From Deltaproteobacteria bacterium (lineage in GTDB: Bacteria; Desulfobacterota; DSM-4660; Desulfatiglandales; HGW-15): a DNA stretch of 32,140 nt. The notes below the pieces were generated by a model. It was not told the origin of the DNA, ran no database searches, and saw only the letters and a program-made list of their open reading frames with translations. The stretch lies in assembly GCA_016931115.1 (NCBI GenBank), contig JAFGFM010000014.1:1-32140 (forward strand), read 5' to 3'. The translations under genes were made by a program, and so were the position numbers. Numbering within the stretch: the first letter of the stretch is position 1; every line of letters starts with the position of its first letter. Shown here one piece after another: positions 23,724 through 30,960 of this stretch.

Positions 23724-24152
23724 CTATTTATTGAACTCTTCCTCTATATTTTCTACAAAGGCCTTTATCTCGTCCCTTACCCTTCTGTAATGGTTCAATG
23801 CCTTCTCCTCATCCTTTTCACCTTCAGACAGCCCTGGCGGATCATCGAAACCCCTGTGCATCAATCTGGTCTTTGCAGGGAAAAAGGGGCATGCCTCTTT
23901 TGCATTGTCACACAGCGTGACAACATAATCAAATTCCATTACGCCCAGTGAATCTATATCCTTTGACCTCTGCGATGAAATATCTACACCAGCCTCAGCC
24001 ATAACCTTTACAGCCCTCGGGTCAACACCCTTTGGTGTAATACCCGCAGAGTATGCCTTGAACTTATCTTTTTTCAGATAATTGGTCCACCCTTCTGCCA
24101 TCTGGCTGCGGCATGAGTTGCCGGTGCATAAGAAGAGAATCTTTTTTATCAT
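23724..24152 (-). CDS. arsC: Thioredoxin-coupled arsenate reductase
   Basis: The 142-residue protein is of the low-molecular-weight phosphatase type that reduces arsenate to arsenite. The P-loop is C9-x5-R15 (LCTGNSCRS), and the redox relay cysteines C81 and C88 (VVTLCDNAKEACPFF) are spaced as in the thioredoxin-dependent subgroup. FDDPPG carries the expected acid region. The start at 24152 is set by AAGGA about 9 nt upstream; a longer frame to 24188 adds 12 unlike residues with no SD. It lies downstream of acr3, separated by a 222-bp repeat-bearing gap, and just upstream of the YeeE/YedE gene. Confidence 0.92.
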   Translation of the reverse strand: MIKKILFLCTGNSCRSQMAEGWTNYLKKDKFKAYSAGITPKGVDPRAVKVMAEAGVDISSQRSKDIDSLGVMEFDYVVTLCDNAKEACPFFPAKTRLMHRGFDDPPGLSEGEKDEEKALNHYRRVRDEIKAFVENIEEEFNK

Positions 24153-24210
24153 ATTTTTATATCCTTTATTAGTTAAAGTGGATTTCATGTAATTTATAAA
24201 TAGGAGTCAA

Positions 24211-24374: not shown

Positions 24375-25463
24375 TTATTCACACCTCACATGACATACAC
24401 CTGCAGGTGTATTTACTTCATATGGAAAATACTTCCTCTTTAACCATAACGCCACATTTACAAGGGCTATCAACACAGGGACCTCAACCAGTGGCCCTAT
24501 AACCGCAGCAAATGCCTGCCCTGAATTGATACCAAAGACTGCAACCGCCACTGCAATGGCCAGTTCAAAATTATTGGACGCTGCGGTAAAGCTTAATGTT
24601 GTTGATTGTTCATATGTGGCCCCTGCCTTCATGGAAAGGAAGAAAGAGGCAAAGAACATAATTACAAAATAGATACAGAGAGGTATGGCAACACGCACCA
24701 CATCCATAGGGAGCTGGACTATGTATTCGCCCTTAAGGGAAAACATGACAAGTATTGTAAACAGAAGGGCGATAAGTGTAATGGGGCTGATCTTTGGGAT
24801 GAATTTTTTCTCATACCATTCCCTGCCTTTAGTATTAAGGCCGATCACACGCGAAATAATGCCTGCAATAAAGGGGATACCAAGGTAGATAAATACACTT
24901 TCGGATATCTGACCAATGGATATATCAACCACAATACCCTTTAGACCTATCCACTGGGGAATCACAGTTATAAATATATAGGCGTAAACAGAAAAGAACA
25001 GCACCTGGAATATGGAATTGAAGGCAACAAGACCAGCACAGTATTCAGTATCGCCAGATGCCAGGTCGTTCCATACAATCACCATTGCTATACAGCGTGC
25101 GAGACCGATGAGTATCAGGCCTACCATATACTCATGGTGCCCGGATAAAAAGGCGATAGCCAGAAGGAACATAAGTATTGGCCCTATTATCCAGTTCTGA
25201 ACCAAAGAAAGCAAAAGCACTTTATAATTACGAAAGACCTTTCCAAGTTGCTCGTATTTAACCTTTGCCAGAGGCGGGTACATCATTAAAATAAGCCCAA
25301 TTGCTATTGGGATGTTGGTTGTGCCAACCTGAAATATATTTATAACATCCTTGATCCTTGGAAAGAGATAGCCTGAAAACACACCGATTATCATTGCTGC
25401 GAATATCCACAGTGTAAGAAACCTGTCCAGAAAAGAGAGTCTTTTAGTAATTGATTCGCTCAT
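24375..25463 (-). CDS. acr3: Acr3-type arsenite efflux permease
   Basis: A 362-residue transporter with ten predicted membrane segments that exports arsenite using the proton gradient. Family motifs are present: [20 protein letters not shown], the [18 protein letters not shown] block with the essential Cys C124, [21 protein letters not shown], and [13 protein letters not shown] with the conserved Glu. The short tail holds two extra cysteines (AGVCHVRCE), which are not essential family positions. AGGAGC lies within the end of ccdA, and the start is 1 bp after its stop, so the two are coupled. Confidence 0.95.
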
Positions 25464-25464
25464 T

Positions 25465-26172
25465 TTATGCTCCTAAAAAAGGATTAACAATAAAATAGAT
25501 AGCCAATAACAGGATAACCACCCCTGCGCCCTTGCGAAACCAGCTCCCGGCACCCTGCCATCTGCTGTTATCCATTATGCTCTTTACAAACCCGGTAAAG
25601 CTCCCTGCAAAGACAATAGGCAGGCAATGGCCTATTGCAAAAAGAATAATAAACAGGATGCCTGTGGCGATCTTTTCCTGCACAGTAATGATTGCAAGTA
25701 TAGGAGCAATAAATCCAAATGTGCATGACCCTGAAAGAATACCATATGCCAGCCCAAGACCAAAGGCCCCGATAAATCCCCTGAAATTGAGTTTGTAAAG
25801 CAGGCTGCCGGATGCTGAACATTTTTCAACCCCGATCATGCCAAGCGCAATCCATATGAGAACAAGGCCTATAACAACCTGCCAGTAATTTCCGATATCG
25901 CCAAGCATGCGCCCAAGAATGGCGCAAATGATTCCTACAAGTGCTATGGAGATAAAAAGGCCAGTCGAGAATAAAACAGAGTATATACCGGCCTTTCGTG
26001 GTGTCAGCATGGCCTCCTGGCCACCAACATAACCGACAATGAGCGGGATTGATGCAAGGTGGCAGGGGCTGAACATTACACTTATCACGCCCCACAGGAA
26101 ACAACCAAGTGCAGCAATAGATGAACCTGAGGTCATCAGTTCATTCACTTTGAGAAAAATTGTTTCAAACAT
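25465..26172 (-). CDS. CcdA/DsbD-like thiol electron transporter
   Basis: The 235-residue protein has six hydrophobic segments. It carries the paired transmembrane cysteines of the family: C37 in [10 protein letters not shown] and C150 in [11 protein letters not shown]. CcdA-type proteins pass electrons from cytoplasmic thioredoxin across the membrane to periplasmic thiol proteins. The exported thioredoxin encoded 14 bp upstream is the obvious partner. AGAGGTTATT precedes the ATG. It is coupled to acr3 downstream. A role in keeping extracytoplasmic thiols reduced during arsenic stress is inferred. Confidence 0.85.
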
Positions 26173-26186
26173 AATAACCTCTGTTG

Positions 26187-26576
26187 CTATTCAACACCCA
26201 TTTTATTGAGCTGGGTTATGATTTCCTTTTCGCTAAAAAATCCCACATGCCTGAATACCTCTTCGCCTTCCGTGTCAAAAAATACCTGGGTAGGAAGCGC
26301 TTTCAGATTGTAGACATACTGCTGTTCAGGGTCTTGCAGGAGGTTGATAAAGACTATTGCGGCCTTCCCCTCATATTTTACTTTCAATTTTTCCAGTATG
26401 GGCGCCATCATCTTGCACTGGGTGCATGTTTTTTTACCAAGGGCAACCATTGTAACCATGCCTTTGACAGGAAGGTTTTTAAGAAATTCCTCATGCTCTT
26501 CAGCAGCAGATTTCCCTGATGCAATCCCTGGAATAATTAAGAGAGTTATACTTACTGTAATCAATAAAGATTTCAT
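26187..26576 (-). CDS. Exported thioredoxin-fold protein (CTQC)
   Basis: A 129-residue protein with a signal peptide (about residues 1-20, ending near GIASGKS). The thioredoxin fold carries the redox motif C51-T-Q-C54 in KKTCTQCKMM and the cis-Pro in ALPTQVFFD. It should act in the periplasm and receive electrons from the CcdA-like protein encoded next. The start at 26576 is set by GGAGGATCAA directly upstream; a longer frame adds four residues but loses the SD. It begins 15 bp after the arsM stop. Confidence 0.88.
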   Translation of the reverse strand: MKSLLITVSITLLIIPGIASGKSAAEEHEEFLKNLPVKGMVTMVALGKKTCTQCKMMAPILEKLKVKYEGKAAIVFINLLQDPEQQYVYNLKALPTQVFFDTEGEEVFRHVGFFSEKEIITQLNKMGVE

Positions 26577-26591
26577 TTGATCCTCCATTTG

Positions 26592-27383
26592 CTATTTAAC
26601 TGCCTTAATGTAGGCTGAGAAAACCAAATTTTCTGCCCCTTCTGCCACACTCCAGCTGCCTATTATTTCTTTACTTTTAGGTTTTCGTGTAATTGATATT
26701 TCTTTAAATCCATTAATTGACAGTATTCTTTCCACCTCACCGGGTGAAATTGCCCCGGACACTCAACCGGTATAGGCCACAGGATCATTAAGTATCTGAT
26801 CAGCCATTTCACCTGATCGGAGTACATCTGATATGACAAGCCTCCCACCAGGTTTAAGAGTGCGGTACAGTTCACTGAACACCCTGCTTTTGTCCGGGGA
26901 TAGATTTATCACACAGTTTGAAATCACCACATCAACCGAACTGTCCTGAACAGGAAGCTCTTCTATTTTACCTGATCTGAAATCAACATTTTCTATCTTC
27001 AGCTTTAGTGCATTTTCTCCGGCCTTTTTAACCATTTCGGGAGTCATGTCCACACCAATAACACGGCCTGATTCACCAACACGTTTTGCCGCAAGAAATG
27101 CATCAAACCCTGCCCCGCTGCCCAGGTCAAGCACTGTTTCACCTGCCTTGAGTTCTGCCTGGCTCAATGGGTTTCCGCACCCAAGCCCCAGGTTTGCCTC
27201 CCCCGGAGCAAGACGAAGGTCTTCGTCAGAGTAATCAAGATACTTTCCAAGGTCTTTTACAGATAAATCTCCTCCTGTTTCTCCGCAACAGGAGCACGAA
27301 GACCCTCCGGATCTGGCGATATCGGAATATTTTTGGATTACAATCTGGTGAACCTTTTCTGTTTGTTTCTCGATATTCATCAT
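26592..27383 (-). CDS. arsM: Arsenite methyltransferase ArsM, probable selenoprotein (Sec207)
   Basis: ArsM transfers methyl groups from SAM to arsenite in the cytoplasm. The frame gives 263 residues if the single internal TGA (26763-26765) is read as selenocysteine. Residues about 82-92 hold the SAM motif [11 protein letters not shown]. Family cysteines C69 (LGLGCGNP) and C157 (SNCVINL) are present, and the TGA falls in YTG-TGA-VSGA, where ArsM proteins have their third arsenic-binding Cys. After it the frame stays open for 56 codons to TAG 26592-26594, including the typical end [14 protein letters not shown]. No other disruption occurs. A bSECIS-like hairpin follows the TGA. Standard annotation would stop at 26763 and give a truncated 206-residue protein. 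A nonsense mutation is the alternative, less likely given position and context. It starts 3 bp after the DGC gene. Confidence 0.85.
26730..26749 (-). promoter_or_regulatory. Candidate bacterial SECIS stem-loop in arsM
   Basis: Starting 13 nt after the TGA on the mRNA, TTTCACC pairs with GGTGGAA (seven pairs, one U-G) around the 6-nt loop CGGTGA. The apical loop begins 20 nt after the TGA and has G as its second and third base followed by U. This matches what is known of bacterial SECIS elements: a short stem, a small apical loop with an early G or GU, and a distance of roughly 16-37 nt. A weaker alternative stem (CCGGG/CCCGG) overlaps it. Confidence 0.7.
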
Positions 27384-27386
27384 ATG

Positions 27387-27770
27387 TTACTCTGCCCCAC
27401 CGCAACACACCTTTTTAATCTCATCTTTTACCCTCTGAACCTCAAGGTGTTTCAGATCAAAATCCTTGCTCTTTTTGATTCCCAGGTCGGTCAGCACTAT
27501 ATAATCCTTTAAGGGGACGACTGCTTTCTTAAGTGTAGCCTTTGCACAGCCCACTTCACACCCGTCTATGGCTATCATGCGTGGCACATCCTTTGCTGAC
27601 TGAACAAACCCTGAGAGACCTCCACCGATCCCTGCAAGACAGAACATCTTGCCAAAGCCTTCCTGGGTTAATTCAACAGCGGCTCTATTTGAGAGCTGCC
27701 CCACATTTGAAGCCCCTGAACATGCTAAAATCATAATGTTCCCATCTGTTGTACAGCAATTTTCTGCCAT
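27387..27770 (-). CDS. DGC-domain putative zinc-binding protein
   Basis: A 127-residue protein of the DGC family, named for the conserved Asp-Gly-Cys: here IDGCEVGCAK with C71 and C75. Other conserved cysteines are C17 (ACSGASNVGQLSNRAAVEL) and C44 (FCLAGIGGG), plus an N-terminal CC and a C-terminal CC. The family is common in anaerobes beside arsenic or mercury genes; its cysteines probably bind metal, and its biochemical role is not established. The start at 27770 is set by AAGGAG about 7 nt upstream; a longer frame overlaps the thioredoxin gene. It lies directly upstream of arsM. Confidence 0.8.
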   Translation of the reverse strand: MAENCCTTDGNIMILACSGASNVGQLSNRAAVELTQEGFGKMFCLAGIGGGLSGFVQSAKDVPRMIAIDGCEVGCAKATLKKAVVPLKDYIVLTDLGIKKSKDFDLKHLEVQRVKDEIKKVCCGGAE

Positions 27771-27787
27771 TTTAATCTCCTTCTTTA

Positions 27788-28021
27788 TTATTGTTGTATC
27801 CAACCCTTTATCTCATCCCTGGTTGGTATCTTTCCGACACTCTTCACCTTGCCGTCCACAACAATCGCTGGTGTCCCGAACACACCATGTTTGGCAATCT
27901 CAAGGGTATCGGTGATTTTTATAATTTGTGCTGAAACACCGGTTTCAGCAACCGCCTCTTTCACATTTTTTTCTGCGGCCTCGCACCTTTTACATCCGGG
28001 ACCAAGAACCTTTATTTCCAT
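27788..28021 (-). CDS. Small CxxC redox protein (thioredoxin-like)
   Basis: A 77-residue thioredoxin-fold protein with C10-K-R-C13 in VLGPGCKRCE and the cis-Pro in FGTPAIVVDG, the hallmarks of the small redox-active-disulfide family found in archaea and anaerobes. It is cytoplasmic. It may reduce ArsC, the DGC protein or ArsM, as all of these need thiols; this is inferred from the neighbourhood only. GGAGG lies about 5 nt upstream of the ATG. 17 bp separate it from the DGC gene. Confidence 0.88.
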   Translation of the reverse strand: MEIKVLGPGCKRCEAAEKNVKEAVAETGVSAQIIKITDTLEIAKHGVFGTPAIVVDGKVKSVGKIPTRDEIKGWIQQ

Positions 28022-29361: not shown

Positions 29362-30534
29362 TTAACCTGATATCCACCCATATGTCATACCAGCAATGGT
29401 AGACAGAACGACAATTATTACACAAAATACTGCTGTCTTTTTTGCCCCCATAATGCCGCCAATTACGAGCATGTTTGGCAGAGAAAGCGCGGGTCCGGCA
29501 AGGAGCAACGCCAGCGCAGGCCCTTTTCCCATACCTGCTCCAATAAGCCCCTGAAGAATTGGCACTTCAGTCAGTGTTGCAAAATACATCAATGCCCCTG
29601 CCACAGATGCAAAAAGATTGGCCCATAGAGAGTTACCACCTACCAGGCTTTCTATATAATGTTCAGGTATCAGGGCAGGGTGACCCGGCCTTCCGAGCAT
29701 GAAACCGGCAACAAGCACGCCAGCTCCCAAAAGGGGTAAAATCTGTTTCATGAACCCCCATGTAGATTCCACCCAGTTTACCCTTTCATCTTTAACAAAC
29801 CACTGTTTGATCATGAACCCAAGGACAGCCAGAAGCACTATGGTAATGTACCATTTGATTGAAAATATAAAAGGCCATATGCCTGTTGAACCCTCTGCAG
29901 GTCTTGCAAAGGCGGCAAATATCAGGATAAGAACCATTGTAAAAATAAACATGGCATCCTGTGTGAGTGTGCGCCCTTTTGCCTCTTCATCAGGTAGATA
30001 AATCTGTCCTGCCTCTCTTTCTGCATCATCCTTTCTAAAGAAAAATGCCATCAAAAGACCGGTTATTATGGCAAAGAGTACAGCACCCAATGCCCTTGCT
30101 AAACCAAGCTGCCAGCCTAAGATTCGTGCAGTTAAGACAATTGCCAGCACATTTATCGCAGGGCCTGAATATAGAAAGGCAGTAGCAGGGCCAATACCCG
30201 CACCCCTTGTATAGATACCTGCAAAAAGGGGCAGAACTGTACATGAACATACAGCAAGTACTGTCCCGGATATGGAGGCAACAGAGTAAGATAATATCTT
30301 GTTTGCCTTTGAGCCGAAATATTTAAGCACCGATGCCTGCGATACAAAAACCGAAATAGCGCCCGCAATAAAAAATGCAGGAATAAGGCATGTGAGTACA
30401 TGCTCCCTTGCATACTCCTGAAGCATAAGAAAGGCTTCAAGGCCTGATTTTCTAATGATCTCACTTCCCCAGGGGATGAAATAGGCTGCTAAAAATATAA
30501 CAGTAATAAGTATTATTTTATAACGTTCTTTCAT
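29362..30534 (-). CDS. ArsP/SO_0444-type permease
   Basis: A 390-residue protein of the permease family that includes ArsP, with about ten membrane segments and two similar halves. Key loops: VCSCTVLPLFAGIYTRGAGIGPATAFLYSGPAINV in the first half and YFATLTEVPILQGLIGAGMGKGPALALLLAGPALSLPN in the second. The family exports methylarsenite and other organoarsenicals; relatives may export other metals. With arsM in the same island, export of methylated arsenic is the natural reading. It lies 50 bp downstream of arsR, and a 9-bp motif in that gap recurs at the arsR promoter. Confidence 0.82.
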   Translation of the reverse strand: MKERYKIILITVIFLAAYFIPWGSEIIRKSGLEAFLMLQEYAREHVLTCLIPAFFIAGAISVFVSQASVLKYFGSKANKILSYSVASISGTVLAVCSCTVLPLFAGIYTRGAGIGPATAFLYSGPAINVLAIVLTARILGWQLGLARALGAVLFAIITGLLMAFFFRKDDAEREAGQIYLPDEEAKGRTLTQDAMFIFTMVLILIFAAFARPAEGSTGIWPFIFSIKWYITIVLLAVLGFMIKQWFVKDERVNWVESTWGFMKQILPLLGAGVLVAGFMLGRPGHPALIPEHYIESLVGGNSLWANLFASVAGALMYFATLTEVPILQGLIGAGMGKGPALALLLAGPALSLPNMLVIGGIMGAKKTAVFCVIIVVLSTIAGMTYGWISG

Positions 30535-30584: not shown

Positions 30585-30929
30585 TTATCTGCAGCAAACC
30601 TCCTCTCTTCTGATAAAAGGGATTTTTTTCACAAGAGATATTATATCCTTTTCATCCTTGAGCCAGTGTTTAAGGTTACCCAGAAGACTTGCCGCATATG
30701 GTGAGCAGCTCCCATCTGACAGAAAATATTCCACCCACAATCCATCCTTCTGGCTCTCAACCAGACAAGCATCTTCAAGTACCTTAAGGTGTTTTGATAC
30801 ACTTGGCTGTGCAATCTGGAGCGCCTCCCTTAATTCGCAGACACACATCTTCTTAAACTGAAGCATTTTTACTATCTTTACCCTGTTTGGATCAGATAGT
30901 GCCTTCATTACCTTGATGAACTCTTTCAT
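30585..30929 (-). CDS. arsR: ArsR-family metalloregulator
   Basis: A 114-residue winged-helix repressor: KALSDPNRVKIVKML, then CVCEL (C29, C31), then the recognition helix QPSVSKHLKVLEDACLV (C55). C29 and C31 in the MCVCEL helix are the usual As(III) ligands of this family; C55 and the terminal CC could add a third. The start at 30929 is chosen because GGAG lies 6 nt upstream and the promoter's predicted start site is about 30954. The in-frame ATG at 30953 would be leaderless and has no spaced SD. It is first in the island and should repress it until arsenite binds. Confidence 0.92.
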   Translation of the reverse strand: MKEFIKVMKALSDPNRVKIVKMLQFKKMCVCELREALQIAQPSVSKHLKVLEDACLVESQKDGLWVEYFLSDGSCSPYAASLLGNLKHWLKDEKDIISLVKKIPFIRREEVCCR

Positions 30930-30960
30930 TCGAATCTCCGCATCTATATTCATTTATTGG

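Follow-up and report, generated by a model that had tools for sequence, protein, structure and literature searches.

A predicted selenocysteine-containing arsenite methyltransferase in a deltaproteobacterial arsenic-resistance operon

The arsM locus and its neighbors

We analyzed a stretch of 32,140 nucleotides (hereafter the window) from the genome of a Deltaproteobacteria bacterium, which is 5.18 Mb in size, 98.5% complete, and assembled as a draft in 240 contigs. The window carries an arsM gene in a single frame of 264 codons that closes with a TAG stop at 26592-26594, and this gene lies in a run of minus-strand genes in the order ArsR, ArsP_1, rhodanese-like, TauE/SafE permease, thioredoxin-like, DGC, arsM, thioredoxin, DsbD/CcdA-like, Acr3, and ArsC-like (Table 1). 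The rhodanese-like assignment, between the ArsP_1 and TauE/SafE permease genes, was made by eye.

Table 1. Features of the arsM locus, with positions in the window
Feature	Position	Strand	Basis
ArsR/SmtB family regulator	30585..30953	-	NF033788 88.9 bits, cut-off 55
ArsP_1 family permease	29362..30534	-	PF03773 3.4e-74
77-aa thioredoxin-like protein (GxxCxxC, GTP motif)	27788..28021	-	family by eye, without profile
DGC-domain protein, directly upstream of arsM	27387..27803	-	PF08859 2.7e-35
arsM, predicted 263-residue Sec-containing arsenite methyltransferase	26592..27383	-	Methyltransf_31 (PF13847) 1.1e-38, read-through protein; NF008823 317 bits
In-frame TGA for predicted Sec207 (third conserved cysteine of ArsM; GUVSGA, a UxxG motif)	26763..26765	-	column comparison
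Candidate bacterial SECIS hairpin UUUCACC-CGGUGA-GGUGGAA	26730..26749	-	comparative pairing
Thioredoxin-like protein with signal-like N terminus, next gene downstream of arsM	26187..26588	-	PF00085 6.6e-10
DsbD/CcdA-like membrane thiol-electron transporter	25465..26172	-	PF02683 1.4e-13
Acr3 arsenite efflux transporter	24375..25463	-	TIGR00832 461 bits, cut-off 283
ArsC-like (thioredoxin-type) arsenate reductase	23724..24188	-	TIGR02691 148.6 bits (below cut-off 174); LMWPc 6.8e-23

The arsenic operon around arsM is partly conserved: genes for ArsR, ArsP, DGC, thioredoxin, and CcdA-like proteins recur near the candidate selenocysteine (Sec) arsM genes of many relatives, although gene order and completeness vary among these loci and several are cut by contig ends. 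Of the 15 relatives' loci, for example, 8 have a DGC match nearby, which in one case covers just 28% of the length. Together, the family assignments and the recurring neighbors point to a detoxification operon.

An in-frame TGA at the third conserved cysteine

Translated with TGA as U, the arsM frame gives 263 residues in which residue 207 is the sole U. A previous reading of the sequence alone had proposed that one TGA splits an otherwise full-length ArsM, followed by 56 family-like codons, and the profile comparison bears this out: the NCBIfam model for arsenite methyltransferase (NF008823) spans residues 6-263 of the read-through protein at 317 bits (cut-off 263), so that the codons 3' of the TGA keep the same family sequence to the last residue. 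Cys69 (in LGCGN) and Cys157 (in SNCVIN) are both in place, as that reading had noted, and with U207 they make up the three As(III)-binding cysteines of ArsM, one of them as Sec. Its placement of the TGA at the third conserved cysteine agrees with the solved ArsM structures, in which a Cys aligns with residue 207, and with the homologues described below. The expected truncation by automatic annotation was also found: under translation table 11 the frame ends at the TGA (26763-27383), giving a product of 206 aa that lacks the third arsenic-binding residue, and surveys of arsM could therefore misjudge such genes as broken or as two-cysteine forms.

We screened all other in-frame TGAs of the window against relatives and set them aside, as they fall in out-of-frame or antisense frames, where the matches are mostly to the closest relative alone, or in columns that are not Cys/Sec. 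The TGA in arsM is the sole one in the window whose column holds U in the close homologues and C in the distant ones.

Searching 85 genomes of the class returned 16 close copies, including the present gene, each of which (16/16) contains exactly one TGA, always at the Sec207 column. Six more clade members, from other families, came from a wider sample of the phylum (395 genomes), and the TGA sits at exactly this column in 22/22 members, never as TAA or TAG, a regularity that excludes chance. The other homologues compared have Cys at column 207 without exception (51/51), and in the alignments compared the column is exclusively Cys or Sec, a check that the sequence-only reading had proposed; C69 and C157 are kept in both Sec and Cys homologues. 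A divergent methyltransferase with Sec at this column (L080) is a fusion of known type. The codons beyond the TGA are under purifying selection, with pN/pS values of 0.25-0.50 on the 3' side compared with 0.18-0.36 on the 5' side. The clade's Sec sequences are monophyletic, with support of 100/100 (100/99 once clostridial sequences are included).

These comparisons bear on two readings in which the TGA ends translation. Taken by itself, the window offers one stop in one frame of a genome in draft, as would be expected of a gene that had recently become a pseudogene or of a fault in sequencing or assembly; the relatives refute this account by keeping the codon, always as TGA and at the same column across the clade, together with selection on the sequence past it, and we give it practically no weight. 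Alternatively, the TGA could be a functional stop, with the 206-residue product real and the 56-residue tail separate or never made. The SAM-binding fold (about residues 79-199) does precede the TGA, and an ArsM with two cysteines has reportedly been described (Huang et al. 2018), but in all copies the tail stays in frame, remains family-like, and is under purifying selection, no stop other than TGA occurs at the position, the genome encodes Sec machinery, and homologues outside the clade have Cys there, making a functional stop very improbable.

The same searches turned up further ArsM genes. One relative (genome G013) holds two Sec-ArsM copies (L095 and L096) plus an additional Cys-type ArsM, and so presents a natural within-genome Sec/Cys comparison. 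Elsewhere, an ArsM homologue in genome G246 (L119) has an in-frame TGA away from the Sec207 column, which is Cys in that protein, and another ArsM homologue (G198:C69:23711-24499) also contains an in-frame TGA.

Selenocysteine machinery and a candidate SECIS hairpin

All four genes expected with a bacterial selenoprotein, which the previous reading had proposed searching for, are present in the genome: selA (628 bits), selB (367 bits), selC (tRNA-Sec; 73.6 bits, gathering score 47), and selD (364 bits; L018:1044-2108, plus strand). The tRNA-Sec model gave a weak signal in all 14 controls and reached its cut-off in 5 of them, and for this reason it is the over-threshold match that counts. The selD gene is itself a selenoprotein gene, with its own in-frame TGA near the N terminus (GAGUASKLG).

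A third alternative is that UGA is read as a different amino acid, through near-cognate readthrough or a changed code. Of the 33 window genes that we checked, 3 end in TGA, and 95 TGG codons specify Trp, from which we conclude that the code is not reassigned; in addition, the homologous residue is always Cys and the Sec genes are all present. We consider insertion of another residue extremely unlikely and decoding as Sec the far better account.

Downstream of the UGA we find a candidate SECIS hairpin with a 7-bp stem (UUUCACC/GGUGGAA) and a 6-nt loop (CGGUGA) that begins 20 nt past the UGA and has G at its second position in 22/22 sequences. The published model for bacterial SECIS elements allows 4-16 bp in the stem and 3-9 nt in the loop, requires G as the first or second loop base, and sets the spacing from the UGA at 16-37 nt (PMC13188914). 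The candidate agrees with these stem, loop, G, and spacing constraints, whereas the energy of the window copy as an isolated hairpin (-6.4 to -7.2 kcal/mol) just misses the published, suggested cut-off of -7.5. Single-sequence folding of the region was no better than that of shuffled sequences, and within the 50-nt stretch a competing CCGGG/CCCGG pairing has the lowest energy; the case for the SECIS therefore rests on comparison. The Rfam SECIS_1 model found no match in the genome, but it found none in any of the 14 controls either, so this negative carries no weight.

Across the 22 sequences the stem is paired in 99.4% of cells, compared with 50-60% when the partner strand is slid by 1-3 columns, and two of the pairs show compensated change, one from U-A to C-G (seven sequences) and the other from A-U to G-C (two sequences). 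The hairpin is absent from Cys homologues, which average 2.7 of 7 pairs at these columns compared with 6.95 of 7 in the Sec genes. Since the region is coding, amino-acid conservation contributes to the pairing; the compensated changes and the absence from Cys homologues argue that the RNA structure is selected as well.

Proposed function and comparison with known ArsM proteins

With the conserved TGA, the Cys/Sec-only column, the decoding machinery, and the hairpin all in its favor, the earlier proposal that Sec207 replaces a Cys is supported, and TGA 26763-26765 is almost certainly read as Sec. We are highly confident, from sequence comparison, that the gene, part of an arsenic-resistance operon, encodes a Sec-containing ArsM, an arsenite S-adenosylmethionine methyltransferase. 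Judging from sequence, machinery, and conservation, SelB and Sec-tRNA-Sec would decode the UGA, with the downstream hairpin directing insertion. By analogy with the family, Cys69, Cys157, and Sec207 would hold the As(III), to which the enzyme would pass methyl groups from SAM; Sec207 stands in for the third cysteine, the one that cycles redox state.

Family and position suggest roles for the neighboring proteins. Reducing power could plausibly come from the adjoining thioredoxin and CcdA-like proteins, although their service to ArsM is guessed from gene position, and the downstream thioredoxin, given its signal-like N terminus, may work outside the cytoplasm. ArsP could plausibly carry methylated arsenic out of the cell, while Acr3 and ArsC would form the inorganic-arsenic arm. 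The operon would then reduce arsenate, export or methylate arsenite, and recycle the methyltransferase with thiol reductants. Sec in place of Cys may bring ArsM a chemical advantage, and it may alter the As-Se chemistry as the sequence-only reading suggested; the 22-member clade with its candidate SECIS kept, together with the matching Cys homologues, provides a clean Sec/Cys pair for the role of selenium in arsenic methylation.

Cys-type ArsM chains of solved structure (5evj and 4kw7) have the same fold, and their three conserved cysteines align with Cys69, Cys157, and residue 207; they differ in having Cys in place of Sec and in being longer (377-387 aa). The three conserved cysteines of Cyanidioschyzon ArsM are Cys72, Cys174, and Cys224 (PMC7248198).

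Several fused selenoprotein families, namely ArsM_AhpD_UU (NF041537), ArsM_DUF2284_UU (NF041536), and MTase_UXPK_star (NF047649), share the ArsM-like methyltransferase domain and the UxxG motif; they are fusions with two or three Sec, unlike the present ArsM, which has no second domain. Against these three NCBIfam models the present protein scores 155-166 bits (cut-offs 460-575), and it falls outside ArsM_AhpD_UU and ArsM_DUF2284_UU in particular, with 161.5-165.6 bits against 510-575 and a chain that ends at 263 aa. We also observed two ArsM-like fusions with several in-frame TGAs in relatives of the same order (L098:2686-3852 and L099:5356-6783, both on the minus strand; motifs WFRUEGGA with CEPUTKYC and WFQUEGGA with GGTUPT, respectively), which resemble the known ArsM/AhpD and ArsM/DUF2284 selenoproteins and, unlike the present ArsM, have no Cys at the C157 position (ISNGVFN).

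Clostridial Sec-ArsMs (L126, L133-L139) have Sec at the same column as Sec207 but are 46-49% identical, form a second clade that lies among Cys sequences in the tree, and carry a hairpin (UUCUUC-AGUU-GAAGAA) of another register and spacing than that of the present clade. The separate tree clades and the different SECIS-like hairpins suggest separate origins. When a common origin of all Sec sequences was tested on the tree it was not rejected (p-AU 0.184), and a SECIS may be exchanged for another within a single lineage. We found no description of the present Sec-ArsM clade in the literature searched, of which coverage was incomplete, and the separation of the two clades, with their different hairpins, is possibly new. 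More tentatively, the change of the third Cys to Sec could have occurred independently here and in Clostridia, each with its own SECIS, and here, alongside the thioredoxin/CcdA chain of the operon, Sec207 could be adaptive for anaerobes by making the reductive recycling of ArsM faster; we put this forward as a conjecture that we lean somewhat against.

Sec-ArsM as such has been catalogued since 2007-2008, as the sequence-only reading had cautioned might be the case, and the present gene thus belongs to a known kind. A selenoprotein designated "Arsenite S-adenosylmethyltransferase, PRK11873" was counted in the Global Ocean Sampling selenoproteome of 2008 (PMC2398784), and reviews name the ArsM selenoprotein family PRK11873/NF008823, with WP_011987699.1 as example (PMC9312934, PMC13188914). 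Both review tables place Sec-ArsM above the heading for predicted families (PMC9312934, PMC13188914), and one of them gives it the motif UxxG, with credit to Fomenko et al. 2007 (PMC13188914). Compared at the family level with this listed selenoprotein ArsM (WP_011987699.1), the present protein is of the same family, standalone, and has a single Sec in a UxxG motif (UVSG here), and it differs in its lineage and in its operon.
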